A stretch of DNA of 64,000 nucleotides from Thermoplasmatales archaeon (lineage in GTDB: Archaea; Thermoplasmatota; Thermoplasmata; Thermoplasmatales; Thermoplasmataceae): assembly GCA_026127925.1 (NCBI GenBank), contig JAJSLM010000001.1, forward strand, positions 62,001-126,000, in the 5' to 3' direction. The position numbers were made by a program, and so were the translations under genes. Shown here one piece after another: positions 6,042-63,281 of the stretch (positions within the stretch are counted from its first letter, which is position 1; each line of letters opens with the position of its first letter). The notes under the pieces were generated by a model. That model ran no database searches. It worked only from the letters and a program-made list of their open reading frames with translations, and had not been told where the DNA came from.

Positions 6042-6986
6042 TCAGATGGTTTTCCACTTTACGATTTTTCCGGAGTCTTTCCTGTCTATCCTTCCAAGGT
6101 TGTAGAGGTGTACAAGATGCGAAATTGCTTCGCCAACTGCGAAAGTGGTTTCCATAACGTTCATCGATTTCATGGATCTGTTGCTGCTCCATCGCATCTC
6201 GCCAGCGACTTGGTATGAGGATTTCCATCTATCAAGGCAGATTTCCTCAACCTCCTTAAGCCTTGAATAGTGGTGGGCCTTTATCTCGTCAATCCTCTTC
6301 CCAATGGCTCTGATTTCCTCGCGGTGTCCGGGAAAAATTATCCGTGGATTCATGCCCTTAATCTTCTCCAGACTATCCATGTAATGTCCAAGCATGTCCG
6401 ATTCAAAAGTGTAACTGCTTATATTTGGTGTAATTTTTGATATTATGTGATCTCCTACAAACATGGCACTGCTGTCTCTAAGAAGAATCGATATCGAACC
6501 CATGGTGTGGCCCGGATTCTCTATCACAGATACGTTACTGTCTATATTCTCCTCCTTGAGCATCCTGTCTATTTTCAAGCTGGCATAAACATCGACTCTC
6601 CTCTGATCAGAGAACATTTCGCGTTCGTGTTCCACCACAGATTTAGGGACATCATTGTCCAAAAGAAATGAAAGAATACGCTCCCAGTATCCATTCGGAT
6701 CGTCTTGCATTGACTGTATAGTAAGTGCATCCCTTTTACCCATAGCTATTGGTATTCCATACTGTTTGCTTATTGCCATGGCACCACCAACATGATCTAT
6801 ATGGAGGTGCGTTAGCACAAGCATCTTCAGATCGTCAAGTTTTATGCCCTCCTCATTGAGCGAGGCAACAGTGCGATTAGACATTCCTGAATCAATTAAT
6901 ATCTCAGAATCCTCTATTTTGTAGACATTTGCCGTTTTCAATGCCCTTATCTCTATGGGCACGACAATTTTCCTTATGTTCTTCAT
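6042..6986 (-). CDS. MBL-fold metallo-hydrolase
   Basis: A 314-residue metallo-beta-lactamase-fold protein with the complete metal-binding set: THLHIDHVGG (about 58-67), a second-shell His in NPGHTMGS, Asp in FVGDHI and a last His in FPGHREEI. About 80 residues after the core form a helical C-terminal extension, as in glyoxalase II-like or lactonase-like hydrolases with an added winged-helix-type domain. The reaction is unknown: thioester, lactone or phosphodiester hydrolysis are all possible. It lies between sppA and gyrA on the same strand with clear gaps. Confidence 0.85.
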   Translation of the reverse strand: MKNIRKIVVPIEIRALKTANVYKIEDSEILIDSGMSNRTVASLNEEGIKLDDLKMLVLTHLHIDHVGGAMAISKQYGIPIAMGKRDALTIQSMQDDPNGYWERILSFLLDNDVPKSVVEHEREMFSDQRRVDVYASLKIDRMLKEENIDSNVSVIENPGHTMGSISILLRDSSAMFVGDHIISKITPNISSYTFESDMLGHYMDSLEKIKGMNPRIIFPGHREEIRAIGKRIDEIKAHHYSRLKEVEEICLDRWKSSYQVAGEMRWSSNRSMKSMNVMETTFAVGEAISHLVHLYNLGRIDRKDSGKIVKWKTI

Positions 6987-7092
6987 GATTATGCCTTCTC
7001 TGAACTCAAAGTATTGAAACTTTCAGCATAAGGATGTCAAATCCGTATTTGTCTTCATGCCCGGTTGGCTTCCAAATTGAAAAAACGGTACA

Positions 7093-9492
7093 CTACGGAT
7101 CAGTTTCCTGGGTATCTACTGAGGATATGCTTATCACTCTATCATCTTCACCAACATCGATTAGTTTAACACCGGATGTAACCCTGCTTTGGATCTTCAC
7201 ATCTTTAACAGGAATCCTTATGCTCTTTTGTTGTTGCGTCACTATGATGATGTTCTGGGATTCTTGAACAGGGATTGCTTTTATCAGCTTGCCCGTTCTC
7301 TCGCTCTCCTTGAAAACGAGCATACCTGAGGTTCCGCGGTGATGAAGGTTAAACGCATTTATTGGTGTACGCTTCCCGATGCCATACTCAGATATGGTCA
7401 GAACATCCTGATCCTCACTGCACATGAATCCCGAGATTATGTATTGATTCTTACCGAGTCTCATTGCTCTTACACCCCTTGAACTCCTCCCTGTTGGGCG
7501 TACTTCTGAAACATCGAAAGCCGAAGCCTTTCCTGCACTGGAAATTGTGAAGACTACATTTTCTTTGCCTATGTTCTCAACGGAAGCTACCTCATCATCT
7601 TCATTCAGTGTGATAATTCTCAATCCAGAGGATCTCATGTTCAAGAGCGACTTCATGAAAGTCTTTTTCACAAATCCACCCTTGGTTATGATCATTAAGT
7701 AATCATCCTCTTTTCCCGAGGCCTTCATGACCTGCTGTACACTCTCTCCTTCGCCTAGCTTGACATAATAGGAAGCGGTAACGCTTACAGAAGTCCTTGA
7801 TTTCTTGTCGATTTCATATGCCTTTATTTTCAGGACTCGACCTGAGTTGGTAAAAAGGAAGAGGTCATCATGCGAGTTGCATGGAACTATGCTCTTAACG
7901 GTATCTTCTCTTACGGTAGATGTGATTATACCCTTCCCGCCTCTTTTCTGGGCGCGGTACTCGTTGAGCGATACTCTCTTGAGAAACCCGGTTTCGCTCA
8001 AAACGATGATGTCACTTTCATTTGGAATAAGATCCTCTATGGTCCTGCCTCCCGCCGAGCGAAACATGACATTCGTCCTGCGTTCGTCTCCAAACTTTGT
8101 TTTTAGAAACTGGATCTCCTCCTTGACAACTTGCCTTTTCTTCCCTTCATCAGCGAGAAGTATGTCCAGATCCTGAATCTTCTGTCTCACAGTGGCCAGC
8201 TCATCCTGAAGTTTCGAGGATTCGAGTGACGTGAGTCTTTGAAGTTTCATGTCCAGGATAGCGTTTGCCTGTACCTGGTCAATGTCCAGGAGGGATTGAA
8301 GAGCCAATCTTGCTTCCGCAGTATCCTTTGATTTCCTTATTGCATCTATTACCTGTTCGATCCTAGAAAGGGCCGAGGAGAGGCCAAGGAGAATGTGTTC
8401 CCTTTCTCTCAGCCGATTAAGGTCGTATTTTGATCGCTTTGTTATGATATTCAGCCGATGATCTATAAAATTCTGGATCATTTCCCTCAGATTCAGCGTT
8501 TTCGGTTCATTGTTAACCAACACAAGATTGTTTATGCTTATCGAAAGCTCGAGATCGGTATGCTCATAGAGCTGGTTCAGTATCAGCGGCCTCATATCGT
8601 TGTCTCTCACCTTAACAATTATGTGCATGCCATTTCTGTCGCTCTCATCCTTTATGTCTGTAATTCCTCTAATCACCTCGTTTTTAACGAGCTCAGCGAT
8701 GCCCTGAATAAAGATGGATTTGTTTACTGTATACGGCAGGGATTTAATCTCTATCATCTTTTCTTTCGAAAGGTCCACCTCGCCCTGGCAAACAACCTTA
8801 CCGCGCCCAGTGAGATAAGCGTCTATGAGACTCTGTGACTGGAACAACACACCTCCACCGGGAAAATCAGGGCCCTTTACAAATCTAAGGAGTTCCTCAA
8901 CAGAACAATTTTGATTGTCAAGCTGGTAATCTATTGCGTCGCATACTTCATTAAGATTATGCGGGACCATGTTAGTCGCCATCCCCACTGCTATACCAGA
9001 TGCACCATTCAGGAGAAGATTCGGAACTTTAGAAGGGAAGTACTCAGGCTCGCTCAGTGTTCCATCAAAATTCAGTCTTGATGGTACCGTGTCCTTTTCG
9101 ATGTCGGCAAGCATTTCCTCTGAAATTGGTGAAAGTCTCGCCTCTGTATACCTCATCGCTGCCGGGGAGTCCCCGTCTATTGATCCAAAATTCCCCTGGC
9201 CATCTACCAGCGGATACCTCAAGGAGAAATCCTGTGCCATTCTGGCAAGAGCGTCATATATTGCAGCATCTCCATGAGGGTGGTACTTACCCATGGTTTC
9301 CCCAACGATTCTTGCGCATTTTTTGTATGGCTTGTCATGCGTTAGATTGAGCTCACTCATGGAATAAAGGATTCTTCTTTGAACGGGCTTCAAACCGTCC
9401 TTAATATCTGGTATGGCACGGTTTACTATAACACTCATAGCATATTCGAGGTATGATGTTTTTATTTCTTCTTCAACAGGTTTCTTTTCCAT
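7093..9492 (-). CDS. gyrA: DNA gyrase subunit A
   Basis: A 799-residue bacterial-type gyrase A. The catalytic tyrosine is Tyr115 in [13 protein letters not shown]. The N-terminal winged-helix and tower domain are followed by a beta-pinwheel C-terminal domain containing a GyrA-box-like QKRGGKG motif near residue 550. It is a little shorter than E. coli GyrA because the acidic tail is missing. With GyrB it introduces negative supercoils using ATP. The gene begins 10 nt after the gyrB stop, so they form an operon. Gyrase in Thermoplasmatales is accepted as an ancient transfer from bacteria. Confidence 0.97.
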
Positions 9493-9502
9493 TTTTATCA
9501 GC

Positions 9503-11446
<1,944 letters not shown>

Positions 11447-44176: not shown

Positions 44177-44270
44177 ATTAGTTGCATATCCATAGCATAA
44201 ATATAAACTGTGGAGTCCTAGCTTCAAAAATTTATTTATAATACCTTGACAATTGTGAATTAGTTAATTT

Positions 44271-46442
44271 ATGCGAATAATTGTATTAAGTTTATTAATT
44301 GTCTGCGTTCTTATTAGCGTCCCTTCTTTCATCCATGTAAGTGAAGCTGGGCCTTCTACTGGGCTCAACTATGATTATAACTTTACAAAACTCCCGATTA
44401 ACAGTTTTCCAAGCAATAATTCAACGATGACATTTGAAAGATTCACGAGCGGATCTTTTTCAAATGTTTCTGTACAAAACGGCTCTGGAAAACGCGGGTT
44501 GCGAATTTACGGTCTTCCTTCAAATGGAAGGGGATACACGGGAATAAAAGTTCATATATCGCATAGTGCAAATTTCTCCCTAAAAATGACCTTTTCATGG
44601 AACGCGGCTGCAAATCTTATGGACACCGGAGAAGTGGTGACTATAGGAACTCGCTCAGCTAATAGTTCACTTGTACGATTCGGTCCTCTCTATAATAAGA
44701 CAGCAGTCGCTGGTAGCGGAAATGATCGAGCTGTGTGGAGCGAACCCAGGTGTTCTGAAGTATACACTCTAGAAATTTCCCATATGGACGCAGATCCAGG
44801 GCGTCTATTCCTCTCAATTAACGACGGCTGGAACTCATCGTCACTTATGCAGTTTCCCTTAACAGACAATTCTACTTTTATAGATGGCACGATCAACCTG
44901 ACCGTAATGGGTATTTATTCCAATATAACTATTTATAATCTTTATGTGGGTCCACCGTCAAGATCCATTTATCCGATCGCTCTTTCTGCAGATCAAATGG
45001 TCTACAAATCAAAAAAAATTGAACTCAACTATCCAGAGGAAAATAAAAGTCTGGCAAATTCCGGTCCAGTGATCGATCAAAATTTGAGCGATATCATATT
45101 TCTTAATATTCAAAATGATACCATATCCTCACTGAACTATGAGAATCGCACGACAAGTAGTATAGCTAATATTGGCAATTACAGTGTGAGAAGCCTGGAG
45201 TATTCCGAATCATATGGCGCCTATTACTTATTTCACAACAGAGGCCGCGCAGAAGTGATCGAAGTCAATTTGGAAAATCTTTCCACGAAGGTAACTAAGT
45301 TCCTTATCGAAAATGGAAATTACTCAAGGTTCTTCGTACTAAATGATCTCTACTTACTCATGACAAGTAATGGTACAGTCATAATCACTCAAGACATTCA
45401 TAATTTCGTAAGTGAACTTCATTCTATCAGCCTAGGAAACAACATAATATACGCCGGCATTCATCATAATAGTTTCATCGTTCTCTGGGATAACAAATCA
45501 CTAAATCAGATTAGCAGGCTTACTGTTTTTTCCGATGGAAATTGGACTGAAACAGAATTTGGTGAATTAAGTACTGTGACCAATATAGAAACCTCCAATA
45601 CATCGGCATACGGTACAATCTTTCTTAAGTATGCGTCATTTGAAAACGAATCTCTTTTCCGCTATTTTTTTAGTTACCCGGATTTACCGTTCTCTGAATT
45701 GATCAGCTTCAACTTTACAAGATTCTGGGACTACGGTAACAACATATTACTTGAAAGAAATGGGGCACTTTACATTGAGAGAAACAAAACTATAGATCAA
45801 ACAAATGTAGTAATACCGGAAGGAAGTTCGTTATACCTGAGCTCAAATCTTGACTACGGATTAATAACGCAAGGAGATAATTTCACTATTCTATACCAAG
45901 GAACGTTATTCAACAAAACTAATTCAACACTTCTTAAAATTACGAGCAATGATATTAAAATGCACTGGCTTATGTTCATGGGTATCGGCTATTTTAGAGT
46001 CTCAATCAATAACTTGAGTTCCGCAAATGCAAGTGTGAAATGGTGGATCGATGGTAACGTAGTCTCAACAACACATTCTTTTAATTACTTTCTTTTGCCT
46101 GGGTATCACACAATAGCAGTCACAATTAAGTACAAAAATCAGACCGTTTCAACAAGCTCGAGAATTTTCGTTTTCGGTTTTTTGCCTGAACTGACTGTTG
46201 CTATTGTTTTAGTTGCGATAATATCGAGGAATAGATTTTACTTGAATCATGATCCAGAGGCTATCAAGAACCTTATAAGCTCTAATGCTGGAAAGAGCAA
46301 GAACGAAATAGCTCACTTGGCCAAAAAATCTAGACTGAGTGTTTCAGCAGTCAGGAGGGCGATCAGAGAAATGGCTCGATCCGGAGAAGTTTCAATAAAA
46401 GAGGATCTGGACGGGAAGCTATATGTTATGATGAAGAAATGA
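44271..46442 (+). CDS. Membrane sensor-like protein with C-terminal winged helix
   Basis: A 723-residue protein. A signal/anchor helix (about 2-26) is followed by about 610 extracytoplasmic residues rich in Asn-X-Ser/Thr sequons: a lectin-like beta sandwich (about 55-235), a propeller-like strand-rich region (about 245-560) and an Ig-like domain (about 575-632). One transmembrane helix (about 633-651) leads to a cytoplasmic winged HTH (about 660-723) with GKSKNEIAHLAKKSRLSVSA. This would be a one-component membrane-bound regulator. Domain names are from pattern only. It lies 97 bp upstream of a small surface-protein gene. Confidence 0.7.
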   Translation: MRIIVLSLLIVCVLISVPSFIHVSEAGPSTGLNYDYNFTKLPINSFPSNNSTMTFERFTSGSFSNVSVQNGSGKRGLRIYGLPSNGRGYTGIKVHISHSANFSLKMTFSWNAAANLMDTGEVVTIGTRSANSSLVRFGPLYNKTAVAGSGNDRAVWSEPRCSEVYTLEISHMDADPGRLFLSINDGWNSSSLMQFPLTDNSTFIDGTINLTVMGIYSNITIYNLYVGPPSRSIYPIALSADQMVYKSKKIELNYPEENKSLANSGPVIDQNLSDIIFLNIQNDTISSLNYENRTTSSIANIGNYSVRSLEYSESYGAYYLFHNRGRAEVIEVNLENLSTKVTKFLIENGNYSRFFVLNDLYLLMTSNGTVIITQDIHNFVSELHSISLGNNIIYAGIHHNSFIVLWDNKSLNQISRLTVFSDGNWTETEFGELSTVTNIETSNTSAYGTIFLKYASFENESLFRYFFSYPDLPFSELISFNFTRFWDYGNNILLERNGALYIERNKTIDQTNVVIPEGSSLYLSSNLDYGLITQGDNFTILYQGTLFNKTNSTLLKITSNDIKMHWLMFMGIGYFRVSINNLSSANASVKWWIDGNVVSTTHSFNYFLLPGYHTIAVTIKYKNQTVSTSSRIFVFGFLPELTVAIVLVAIISRNRFYLNHDPEAIKNLISSNAGKSKNEIAHLAKKSRLSVSAVRRAIREMARSGEVSIKEDLDGKLYVMMKK

Positions 46443-46539
46443 TCGTGCCCTTACAGTATTCGTGAAAAAGTAGTCCACTGTTCTATGGAAGAGGTCATTG
46501 GAAAATATTTATTACCGGATTTACATAAGGGAGAGAATA

Positions 46540-47115
46540 ATGAAAAAGTTGAAACTAATCTCAGTCGTGGTCCTTGCCGTTGTTCTATTAGGAACAATAG
46601 GTATTGCGGGAAATTCTTCCGCTACTGTTCCTACGCTTCCGCTTCCTCCATCAAGTCTACCAACAATGACTTATTACACTACGAACGGAACCGGTTATGC
46701 AATCAATACTACATTGTGGGCAGAACTATTCTTCGATGTTATAGACAATTCTTCATACGTTTCTTTTAACTGGAGTGCTAACAGTACGCAATACCTTATA
46801 GTATTTGATTTAAGTTATACTGGACTAAATGCGTACGGGCTTCAGTTCATCTCAAGTCTCTCGTCTATAGGAGCTCCAACTGTTCCCCATTACAAACAGG
46901 CCTTCAACATGACGAAGAACATGCTATCACAGGCCAAGAATAACGGGAAAACTGTTACAAACATAGTTGCTCTAGATTATGGTTCATTCCCTGGGTTTTC
47001 TTGGTCCACAGTCAATATCAAGAGTAATTTAACCGAGTATAGGGACATAGGCATAGTTGTGGCAATAGTTGTAGCGATGTTCGCGCTTTATTACTATTTC
47101 AATAGGAAAAAATGA
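46540..47115 (+). CDS. Membrane-anchored small surface protein, unknown
   Basis: A 191-residue predicted exported protein. It begins MKKLKLISVVVLAVVLLG, a signal peptide, continues as a Ser/Thr/Tyr/Asn-rich ectodomain and ends with a hydrophobic helix (IVVAIVVAMFALYYYF) and NRKK, a C-terminal membrane anchor. The ATG at 46540 follows GGGAGAG, a ribosome binding site; a longer frame from 46498 is less likely. It lies 97 bp after the winged-helix membrane protein on the same strand and may be its partner or target. No family recognised. Confidence 0.7.
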   Translation: MKKLKLISVVVLAVVLLGTIGIAGNSSATVPTLPLPPSSLPTMTYYTTNGTGYAINTTLWAELFFDVIDNSSYVSFNWSANSTQYLIVFDLSYTGLNAYGLQFISSLSSIGAPTVPHYKQAFNMTKNMLSQAKNNGKTVTNIVALDYGSFPGFSWSTVNIKSNLTEYRDIGIVVAIVVAMFALYYYFNRKK

Positions 47116-48831: not shown

Positions 48832-48906
48832 GCTCCGATGGTGTAGTCCGGCCAAGCATACCGGCCTTTCAAGCCGGCGACCCGGGTCCGAATCCCGGTC
48901 GGAGCA
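48832..48906 (+). tRNA. tRNA-Glu(TTC)
   Basis: A 75-nt tRNA. The acceptor stem GCTCCGA pairs with TCGGAGC, the anticodon loop CTTTCAA gives TTC, and the T arm is CCGGG-TCCGAAT-CCCGG. No encoded CCA; discriminator A. An accessory island with a broken IS and an AbiE pair begins just after it. Confidence 0.95.
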
Positions 48907-49069
48907 CTCTATTGAAAGTATAATGCCATACTACATCTGCAATTATTCTCTTACCAATACTATAAACGTATTTATTACAGTACCTCCGAACCGAGTTAAC
49001 TTTTTAGACAGCAATGGCTATCCTTATTCGGAGAAAAGGAAAGAGTGGCCCTCCGCCCACAGTCTTTAT

Positions 49070-49872
49070 TCAGGTCTGTTTGCGGGTTCTTTCCTTTCTC
49101 TCTACGTTATTCCCCATCACGGTACATGATTCACTCAACTCTATGAGATACTTCTTTAAGCTCACCTCCTCATGATAAAAAAGATACCAGATTGATTCAA
49201 CAAGCTGCTCGTATGCGAAGAGAAAATACCTGACGCGGATATCCTTGCTCTTTGTCTTTATCCTGCACTCATCCTGTACCCTGAACATGGTCTCAATGCG
49301 CCATCGGAACTTGTATTTCGCGATGATCCGATCGAGATCTATATCTGAAGAATTTGTGGCGAAGCACCAGTCGTAATATTCTTCTGATCGATGGTCGAAT
49401 ATCTGCTTCAGGAATGCAAGATACACGGAATCCTCAACCTTTCTTCCCTCCCGGTAAATGGAGAATTCATAGAGCATCACTTTTTTCTCCCTCTCGTACA
49501 TGAATGAGAACTCATCCTTCACCTGAGGATTCTTCGGGACGAAGATGAGATAGTTTATTTTCCGTTCGTTCAATGACATGATCAGGTCCTTTGAATAAAA
49601 TCCCCGATCAAACAGTAACAGGTCTATGTGGCCCAACATCGATAGGAGAAGATCAAGAATTACCGAGATCTCTAAGGGCATGTCATTGCCCATTGGTGAT
49701 GGTATTGATATTACGGGGAGCCTCAGATCGCTATTTACCCGACTAGCTGTCAGATATGAGAATCTTCCAGTTACGCCATGATCACATGTCCAACCATGTA
49801 TCCACGAAGAATCCCTGTATGCCTTCTATCTCGAGTCTGTTCGTAACATTCATTGGTATCTTTTTCATTAGA
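49070..49872 (-). pseudogene. Broken IS4-superfamily transposase
   Basis: The C-terminal 207 residues are intact: LLLFDRGFYSKDLI carries a DDE aspartate, and KFRWRIETMFRVQDE is the catalytic-glutamate region of IS4-type transposases. Upstream the same-strand sequence continues as TCDHGVTGRFSYLTASR and PVISIPSPMGNDMP. Before that, in another frame, an ATG at about 49872 begins MKKIPMNVTNRLEIEGIQGF and reaches a stop within DTWLDM. A frameshift near 49793 splits the gene, and most of the N-terminal half is absent. This is an inactive insertion sequence copy. Confidence 0.75.
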
Positions 49873-50115
49873 TATCAAATAGATCTCTTAAAGCTATGAA
49901 TAAATATTTCAATCGATTAGGAGGAAGGAGAAGAATAAATTATTGTATTATCCAGATGATTATCTTCGGAGATACTGTTTCCTGCTCAAAAAATTGTAAT
50001 ATTCGTTGTTTGTTTGGTTTCTAGAGATTTTAATTCTATACTTGTGTCACATAATCACCATATTTGTGGGTATAATGCTACACAAACTTTATTTTCATTT
50101 ACCATATTTGCCTGT

Positions 50116-50739
50116 ATGGTTTACAACAGAGTTCTGGATACACTAGAAGAATTACAGTTACACGGAAAGACCGTCTTCACAATAAATGATGCATCAATGC
50201 TTATGAAAAAACCAAAAAAATATGTTTCCAAGCTATTATCTTCCAACAGAAAGGTGAAAAGAATTGAAAGGGGATTGTATTTCATAAGCTCTGCAAGTGG
50301 AGATAATATCTATGAAATTGCATCCCAGATTGTTTTTCCATCATACATCAGTCTATTCGCTGCATTTCAGTATTATTCAGTAACAGATCAGATTATTAGG
50401 AAATACAGCGTAATATCAATAAAAAGGCACAGAGAGATTAACCTTGGTGAGAATATAATTGAATTCAGGACATTGGGAAAAGAAAGATTTTTTGGATTCA
50501 ATAAAGTACAGAACGTTTACATTGCTTCCATAGAAAAGGCAATCATCGACTCTCTTTATCTGAATATTCCTACTTTCTCATATGTAAAAGAAGCTTTTGA
50601 ATTATCTCGACAGAATTCAAAACTGAACCTCAAAAGGTTAAAGGAGTACGCCGATAGAATGAACTCAGGAAATGTTAACAGGAAACTCCCACTACTGCTT
50701 CATCATGAAGATGAAAGTAGAATGTCGGAGGGCGATTAA
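50116..50739 (+). CDS. AbiEi-type antitoxin/repressor
   Basis: A 207-residue protein with an N-terminal winged helix (LDTLEELQLHGKTVFTIND) and the AbiEi-like body (RGLYFIS, ASQIVFPSYISLFAA, IEKAIIDSLYL). It is the antitoxin half of type IV AbiE toxin-antitoxin systems, which repress their own operon and give phage abortive infection in bacteria. I chose ATG 50116; the frame extends to 50014 but lacks family-like sequence there. It is followed one base later by the toxin gene. Confidence 0.82.
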   Translation: MVYNRVLDTLEELQLHGKTVFTINDASMLMKKPKKYVSKLLSSNRKVKRIERGLYFISSASGDNIYEIASQIVFPSYISLFAAFQYYSVTDQIIRKYSVISIKRHREINLGENIIEFRTLGKERFFGFNKVQNVYIASIEKAIIDSLYLNIPTFSYVKEAFELSRQNSKLNLKRLKEYADRMNSGNVNRKLPLLLHHEDESRMSEGD

Positions 50740-50740
50740 G

Positions 50741-51535
50741 ATGATTGATGTGGGTGATCTTCTGAAACAGTCAGGGAGATTCAGAGATGCAAGGCAGCTC
50801 GAAAAGGACTATCTTCTTACACTTTTACTCTTCGAGATATACAGAGTTTTTGACTACAAACTAATTTTCAAAGGGGGCACATCGCTAAAATACTTCTACA
50901 ATCTTAACAGATTTTCTGAGGATCTTGATTTCTCTTACATAGGAGAAAATAGCTCAGTTGAAAGAGGCAAGATAAACAGGAAATTTGAAGTAGCTATTGA
51001 AAGCGTAGGAAAGCAGTATGTAATAAAAAGAATGGAACACAGGGGACGCAAGGAAAATGGCACTGTTGTAGGGATTAACTTTGAACTAAGAGTTCAGGGT
51101 CCTCTCTATGAAGATTCACGGCAGATGCAGAACGTAAGTGTTGATATAAGCCTAAGAGGGGATGTTCTCTTGGAATCTGAAAATAAGTACATGCTTCCAT
51201 CTTACCAGGATATTCCGCTTTTTCTGGTACCTGTAATGAATCTTGAAGAGATTGCAGCAGAAAAAGTTGCATCCATAATGGAAAGAGATAAGATCAGGGA
51301 TATATACGATCTATATTTCCTCCTATTCCTGAAGAAAGTGAAATATAATGAGCCATTGGTTATTCAGAAAATGAGTAGAAGGTTAGAGAAATTTGATAGG
51401 AATAAACTAAGGGAAAAGATACATATTGCTTCAAGTCTGATGAAGTGGAATTCGGAACTATCATATCTTGTTAATCCCCTACCTGACAATTTATCCGTTG
51501 TTAGAACACTTGAAGAGATAATTGGATTAAACTAG
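50741..51535 (+). CDS. AbiEii-type nucleotidyltransferase toxin
   Basis: A 264-residue nucleotidyltransferase of the AbiEii/AbiGii (DUF1814) family. FKGGTSLKYFYNLNRFSEDL (about 44-62) bears the GGTSL and DxD (Asp61, Asp63) nucleotide-binding motifs, and IAAEKVASIMERDKIRDIYDL is a family stretch (about 170-190). Related toxins add nucleotides to tRNA acceptor ends. The start ATG lies one base after the antitoxin stop. It is very probably co-expressed with AbiEi. Confidence 0.88.
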   Translation: MIDVGDLLKQSGRFRDARQLEKDYLLTLLLFEIYRVFDYKLIFKGGTSLKYFYNLNRFSEDLDFSYIGENSSVERGKINRKFEVAIESVGKQYVIKRMEHRGRKENGTVVGINFELRVQGPLYEDSRQMQNVSVDISLRGDVLLESENKYMLPSYQDIPLFLVPVMNLEEIAAEKVASIMERDKIRDIYDLYFLLFLKKVKYNEPLVIQKMSRRLEKFDRNKLREKIHIASSLMKWNSELSYLVNPLPDNLSVVRTLEEIIGLN

Positions 51536-62888: not shown

Positions 62889-63281
62889 GTGGACGAAATA
62901 GACTGGTCTATTGTAAATATTCTGAAAGAGAACTCAAGAACAACAAACTCTAACATCGGCAGGAAACTCAATATTTCTGAGGGAACAGTGCGAAAAAGAA
63001 TCAAAAATATGCTTAAGTCAGGCGTTATTAAGAAATTTACAGTTGTCGTTAAAAATAATGGAATTGAGGGTATGGTATTGCTCACCTTAGACTCAAAGAA
63101 AGCTAAACACGTTAATGATATAATTACCAAAAAATTTGATGAAGTTTACGAATTCTCGGGTAAATACGACGTAGCTCTTCAGGTGAACTGCAGTTCTCTG
63201 GTCGAACTTAATAACATAGTAGATGAACTCCGTTCAATCGATGGTGTGAGGGAGACGAACACATTGGTACGGCTTCATTAA
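62889..63281 (+). CDS. Lrp/AsnC-family transcriptional regulator
   Basis: A 130-residue Lrp/AsnC regulator. The N-terminal HTH is IDWSIVNILKENSRTTNSNI and GRKLNISEGTVRKRIKNML, followed by an RAM-type ligand/oligomerisation domain (about 60-130, with FSGKYDVALQVNC). The start is GTG 62889. Such regulators bind amino acids or related effectors in archaea. The target is unknown; it could be the small gene upstream. Confidence 0.88.
   Translation: MDEIDWSIVNILKENSRTTNSNIGRKLNISEGTVRKRIKNMLKSGVIKKFTVVVKNNGIEGMVLLTLDSKKAKHVNDIITKKFDEVYEFSGKYDVALQVNCSSLVELNNIVDELRSIDGVRETNTLVRLH

Follow-up and report, generated by a model that had tools for sequence, protein, structure and literature searches.

The window, the whole stretch of 64,000 nucleotides that was analysed, carries two adjacent genes on the plus strand. 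The first encodes a membrane-anchored regulator-like protein (REG) and the second a small surface protein (SM), with 97 bp between the REG stop codon and the SM ATG. The features of the locus were as follows:

44177..44270, no strand: divergent intergenic region between the GAPDH gene (minus strand) and REG (plus strand), an arrangement that recurs in most family loci
44271..46442, plus strand: REG, membrane-anchored regulator-like protein, 723 aa, short form of a family of ~1250 aa
44271..44357, plus strand: REG signal peptide region, residues 1-29 (hydrophobic 1-27; helix 2-15 in AlphaFold2, AF2)
44358..44960, plus strand: REG lectin-like (ConA-type) jelly roll, residues 30-230 (AF2; Foldseek)
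45054..45950, plus strand: REG probable beta-propeller, residues ~262-560, of which 431-557 are poorly modelled (AF2; Foldseek)
45951..46172, plus strand: REG juxtamembrane Ig-like domain, residues 561-634 (AF2 strands; weak BiPBP_C match)
46173..46241, plus strand: REG single transmembrane (TM) helix, residues ~635-657 (hydropathy 629-653; AF2 helix 638-657)
46242..46439, plus strand: REG predicted cytoplasmic winged helix (wHTH), residues 658-723, basic (AF2; HTH_24 below cut-off; Lrp/AsnC cross-matches)
46500..46539, plus strand: SM probable core promoter (GGAAAATATTTATTA, BRE/TATA-like), nearly leaderless (conserved in the sister genome)
46540..47115, plus strand: SM, 191 aa, with a signal peptide, a compact ectodomain and a C-terminal TM helix ending FNRKK (AF2 pLDDT 87.4)

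We compared both genes with a same-genus relative. The dN/dS values of 0.22 for REG and 0.07 for SM showed purifying selection, in the case of REG on every domain, and by this measure both are real genes. The relatives of the organism place it in Thermoplasmatales. Whole-genome searches found REG in the window's own family of this order; outside the family, matches covered only the Ig-like repeats of the model or were short stray segments. Nearly every genome of this Thermoplasma-group family had a single REG gene: of 35 good genomes in the family, 33 gave a single strong copy with a profile of the REG tail. No significant Pfam or NCBIfam family was found for REG, which forms a real, conserved, single-copy family.

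Across the family, REG was usually ~1250 aa long. In the window's genus it is shorter and lacks model positions ~549-1057 (~510 aa, mostly Ig-like repeats), while the nearest relatives of this genus in the SM tree have the long form. Forms of ~710-765 aa with a similar stretch missing also occurred in Acidiplasma and in some Ferroplasma-type genomes, others of that genus being long. Because short forms occur both there and in the window's genus, and close relatives are long, the shortening probably happened more than once. At two loci, L115 of Thermogymnomonas acidicola (6564-9854) and G008:C8 (about 95826-99134), REG was split over several frames; these copies reflect either a pseudogene or sequencing errors.

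Hydropathy analysis of REG showed only two hydrophobic stretches, residues 1-27 and 629-653. The ectodomain between them contained 32 N-X-S/T sequons compared with 12.4 ± 3.0 when its own residues were shuffled, and this surface receptor is probably sugar-coated. The AF2 model of REG was built from 36 sequences with a mean pLDDT of 65.7, and residues 431-557 were unreliable, so that no blade count is claimed for the propeller. Foldseek searches against the PDB matched the jelly roll to legume lectins and ERGIC-53 (TM-scores by target 0.42-0.61) and the propeller region to BamB and TolB propellers, and one REG orthologue gave a weak match to Beta-prop_ACSF4. Ig/PKD-type matches were found in REG orthologues. 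These folds are those of binding modules; however, because the TM-scores were modest, the lectin and propeller labels are assignments of predicted fold and not of function.

Other proteins with the Ig-like domain found next to the membrane in REG, some of about 390-450 aa and some larger, had no wHTH tail in the cases read. At loci L197-L200 (G002, G032, G009 and G045), a secreted protein of 390-450 aa shared with REG this Ig-like domain as well as a C-terminal TM helix, but not the wHTH, and the portion before its Ig-like domain resembled, by eye, an NlpC/P60-type enzyme domain.

The ~66 C-terminal residues of REG were modelled by AF2 at pLDDT 85-88 as three helices (662-671, 677-686 and 691-703) followed by two strands (707-711 and 717-721), which is the H-H-H-E-E order of a winged helix. 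By the usual topology, we infer that this domain faces inside. None of the Pfam HTH models reached its cut-off for REG, with HTH_24 scoring 18.9 bits (E 0.0011) against a cut-off of 21.9. A profile of 27 REG tails searched against the PDB matched, after two designed proteins, MCM wHTH, LrpA and MarR-type chains at E 0.009-0.5, with the MCM C-terminal winged helix as the best natural solved-structure match. The next matches of the profile in the window's genome were an Lrp/AsnC regulator at 62889-63281 and an HTH_24-TRASH protein. Across Thermoplasmatales genomes, we read 11 of the weak matches outside REG (two in the window's genome and nine in other genomes, leaving G022 and G258 unread). Of these, ten passed the cut-off of a Pfam HTH family, and the remaining one showed weak wHTH-type matches (MCM5_C and PaaX). 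These cross-matches were mostly transcription factors of the Lrp/AsnC type, and no paralogue of the REG tail was found on other proteins of the same genomes, where the weak matches were HTH proteins.

The net charge of the tail was positive in all 36 sequences (pI 8.2-11.6; 10.2 for the window's REG). The residues of helix 3 varied between orthologues. The most conserved element was an acidic wing turn, D-x-D/N-G, in which D712 was invariant; this is unusual for a DNA-contacting wing and counts against DNA binding. By prediction and homology, the fold of the tail is established as a winged helix of HTH ancestry; DNA binding by the tail is likely.

SM was read from the ATG at 46540, since homologues and the promoter position support this start over a possible TTG at 46498 (205 aa). 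Its dN/dS of 0.07 was close to those of GAPDH (0.05) and pelota (0.06), a constraint that, in this comparison, is like that of housekeeping genes. An SM homologue was present in 58 of 61 relatives and in all 36 good ones. Across a sample of the phylum, the SM profile found the gene in 21 of 21 good genomes of the order and in none of 173 genomes outside it, and none was found in viral contigs. Invariant features included W60, N97, G100, A121-F122 and the C-terminal Y..FNR. The AF2 model had a pLDDT of 87.4, with its core above 95. We found no significant Pfam or NCBIfam family for SM and no fold match in the PDB with Foldseek, whose matches all had E above 1 and low TM-scores and were rejected as chance.

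In outer families of the order (loci L129-L137), a loop of SM reads DATGDGYTNQEKL and resembles a calcium-binding TSP3/dockerin loop, and it looks degenerate in the window's family. The Ca-binding loop suggested by DATGDGYTN in these families was set aside, being without Pfam support. In the same outer families, SM adjoined a different conserved gene set with apparently PurL/PurQ-like genes upstream.

The initial annotation had described a 723-residue protein with a signal, a sequon-rich ectodomain, one TM helix and a winged helix, followed by a membrane-anchored surface protein. Hydropathy, the AF2 model and the sequon excess agreed with the first part, and SM as read from the ATG at 46540 with the second. 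Structure prediction, which that annotation had named as a check, gave a DNA-binding-type fold for the tail, in keeping with the profile matches to HTH proteins. The same annotation had taken conserved linkage of the two genes as a further check, and here the outcome was divided. REG and SM were adjacent in 37 of 58 family loci. Unlinked copies in the family were limited to a few clades, chiefly Ferroplasma and Acidiplasma, and in the E-plasma group SM was inverted in place relative to REG, therefore no shared transcript is possible there.

Counted from SM, REG lay immediately upstream on the same strand in 33 of 67 named loci, adjacent and convergent in 4, and in the same locus at ~4-10 kb in another 4. 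It was not in the locus in the remaining 26, nine of which belong to outer families that lack REG, and some of the absences at the few loci that end close to SM are uninformative. SM thus occurred without REG in other families of the order. In the Ferroplasma-type clade (L091, L094, L097, L100, L104, L108, L110, L113 and L123), a different secreted protein of ~1100 aa stood divergently beside SM in REG's place; it had a C-terminal TM helix and a short basic tail, and no wHTH was seen in it.

The full block consisted of GAPDH and RadA in divergent orientation, then REG, SM, a UbiX-like flavoprotein, a Mut7-C RNase and pelota, with the UbiX-like gene absent from the window. SM remained with UbiX, Mut7-C and pelota when REG was elsewhere. 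Judged by these gene orders, the adjacency of REG and SM is ancestral in the family and is partly explained by block synteny. As the two genes sit together within a stretch of synteny that is itself conserved, it is plausible that they work as a pair, but their adjacency is no proof of it.

We aligned both intergenic regions with the sister genome. The region between GAPDH and REG was well conserved. Before SM, the core promoter (about 46500-46540) was kept and the upstream spacer had diverged; similar boxes were found upstream of SM across loci. This comparison showed no conserved inverted or operator-like repeat in either region, and the palindrome TTGACAATTGTGAA before REG was rejected, not being kept in the sister genome. 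Binding of REG at the SM promoter (46443-46540) has no sequence support yet, because only the core promoter is conserved and there is no inverted repeat.

Downstream in the window, a tRNA-Glu gene (48832-48907) was accompanied by part of a DDE transposase (49070-49693) and by a gene for an AbiEii-type toxin (PF08843) at 50672-51535. Before the toxin gene was a 241-aa ORF, which may be its AbiEi-type antitoxin in a type IV toxin-antitoxin system. The stretch 48832-51535 is possibly a small mobile island.

Archaeal surface-layer and adhesin proteins carry propeller and PKD/Ig domains, and REG is like them in its ectodomain modules and sequon density. However, to our knowledge a cytoplasmic winged helix is not part of this kind of protein, and REG has one. 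In bacterial regulators of the ToxR/CadC type, an OmpR/PhoB-type wHTH at the N-terminus is linked through one TM helix to a C-terminal sensor outside. REG shares the single TM helix and, by prediction, the outside sensor and the inside winged helix, but not the type, as its order is reversed, its C-terminal HTH is Lrp/AsnC-like and it has no Trans_reg_C Pfam match. Nor is REG an Lrp/AsnC regulator: the relation is confined to the HTH, without an AsnC_trans_reg (RAM) domain.

HTH regulators tethered to the membrane are well known from archaea (PMC10269533, PMC6396743). One published class is that of the transmembrane transcription regulators (TTRs), of which a census by Demey et al. 2023 counted 1,384 in archaea; each TTR joins a predicted DNA-binding domain to a TM region within a single polypeptide, most commonly with a single pass (PMC10269533). 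REG is likewise a one-component protein with at least one predicted TM region, and its wHTH fold and HTH profile homology give it a predicted DNA-binding domain, though below Pfam gathering scores. The census used recognised DNA-binding domain models (PMC10269533) and may have missed a sub-cut-off tail such as that of REG. REG differs from TTRs in its large lectin/propeller/Ig ectodomain, and its function is predicted. If the regulator reading is right, REG works like a TTR. ArnR and ArnR1 of Sulfolobus acidocaldarius are studied archaeal membrane-bound HTH regulators with an N-terminal HTH, a HAMP and sensor domain and two C-terminal TM helices (PMC6396743). REG is also a membrane-bound HTH protein of an archaeal acidophile, but with its C-terminal wHTH, one internal TM helix and large outside domain it does not belong to the ArnR family.

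The initial statement that no system of this form had been described was therefore too strong for the class, as TTRs (PMC10269533) and ArnR/ArnR1 (PMC6396743) are known; the particular architecture of REG was not found in the literature searched. That literature, mostly outside subscription papers, gave no description of the REG family or of SM. Membrane-anchored wHTH regulators are thus already known as a class; what is new is the REG family with its lectin, propeller and Ig ectodomain, reversed domain order, family-wide conservation and unannotated SM companion.

We favour, with some reserve, the reading of REG as a one-component transmembrane regulator specific to its clade. Its ectodomain, with lectin-like, propeller and Ig-like parts, would meet a ligand outside the cell, which may be a glycan, a surface protein or another cell. 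Such contact would change how the winged helices tethered to the membrane are placed or paired, and these would then bind DNA near the membrane and change transcription. The DNA binding, the ligand and the regulon of REG are things that we only infer. The divergent promoter that REG shares with GAPDH-RadA in most loci is a layout often seen with regulators and counts for this reading, as do the predicted wHTH with its HTH cross-matches, the basic tail, the single conserved copy under purifying selection, the binding-type folds outside and the archaeal precedent of tethered HTH regulators. On the other hand, the non-obligate linkage to SM, the sub-cut-off HTH, the variable helix 3 and the lack of an operator repeat count against it. 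As a rival, REG would be a surface glycoprotein or adhesin in which the winged helix, by contacting proteins or tethering the nucleoid, fixes the envelope to something inside and does not regulate genes. The propeller and the Ig/PKD-like repeats resemble S-layer and adhesin modules, homologous Ig-like domains sit on other secreted proteins without the wHTH tail, the wing turn is acidic and helix 3 is variable, a single-copy and near-universal gene is as expected for a structural part, and winged helices such as the MCM C-terminal one need not be transcription factors. However, the tail is basic in all orthologues examined and cross-matches mostly Lrp/AsnC-type transcription factors, and we regard an adhesin as unlikely, if still a serious competitor.

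Release of the winged helix by regulated proteolysis, to act as a soluble factor, would suit the single TM helix and short linker, which are compatible with intramembrane cleavage. Nothing else specific points to it and no cleavage motif or dedicated protease was identified; we consider it highly improbable. A dedicated two-gene sensory pair, with SM as co-receptor or ligand presenter, would be compatible with the regulator reading, and in its favour the two genes adjoin each other in 37 of 58 family loci, some of them with changed surroundings. Yet SM is found throughout the order, also where REG is missing, and a probable core promoter of its own precedes it. In Ferroplasma, Acidiplasma and others, where the two are separated, SM stays with UbiX, Mut7-C and pelota, so that the adjacency may be passive synteny; we think such a pair unlikely.

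SM does not depend on REG, although within REG's family the two may be partners, or REG may act on SM as its target. It is probably a basic envelope component of the whole order. The least expected part of the locus is this order-universal protein without a known fold, and as an unannotated, order-wide protein with a confident model and no solved-fold match, it is a good candidate for an envelope part and may merit study apart from REG. A further reading, which we consider distinctly doubtful, is that acidophilic archaea of this clade sense their surface through REG and SM together: a lectin/propeller receptor that binds glycans or cells would control genes directly from the membrane, with the order-universal, new-fold SM as its partner. 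If the regulator reading is true, REG would be a single-copy, family-wide candidate for one-protein sensing of the surroundings by Thermoplasma-type archaea.
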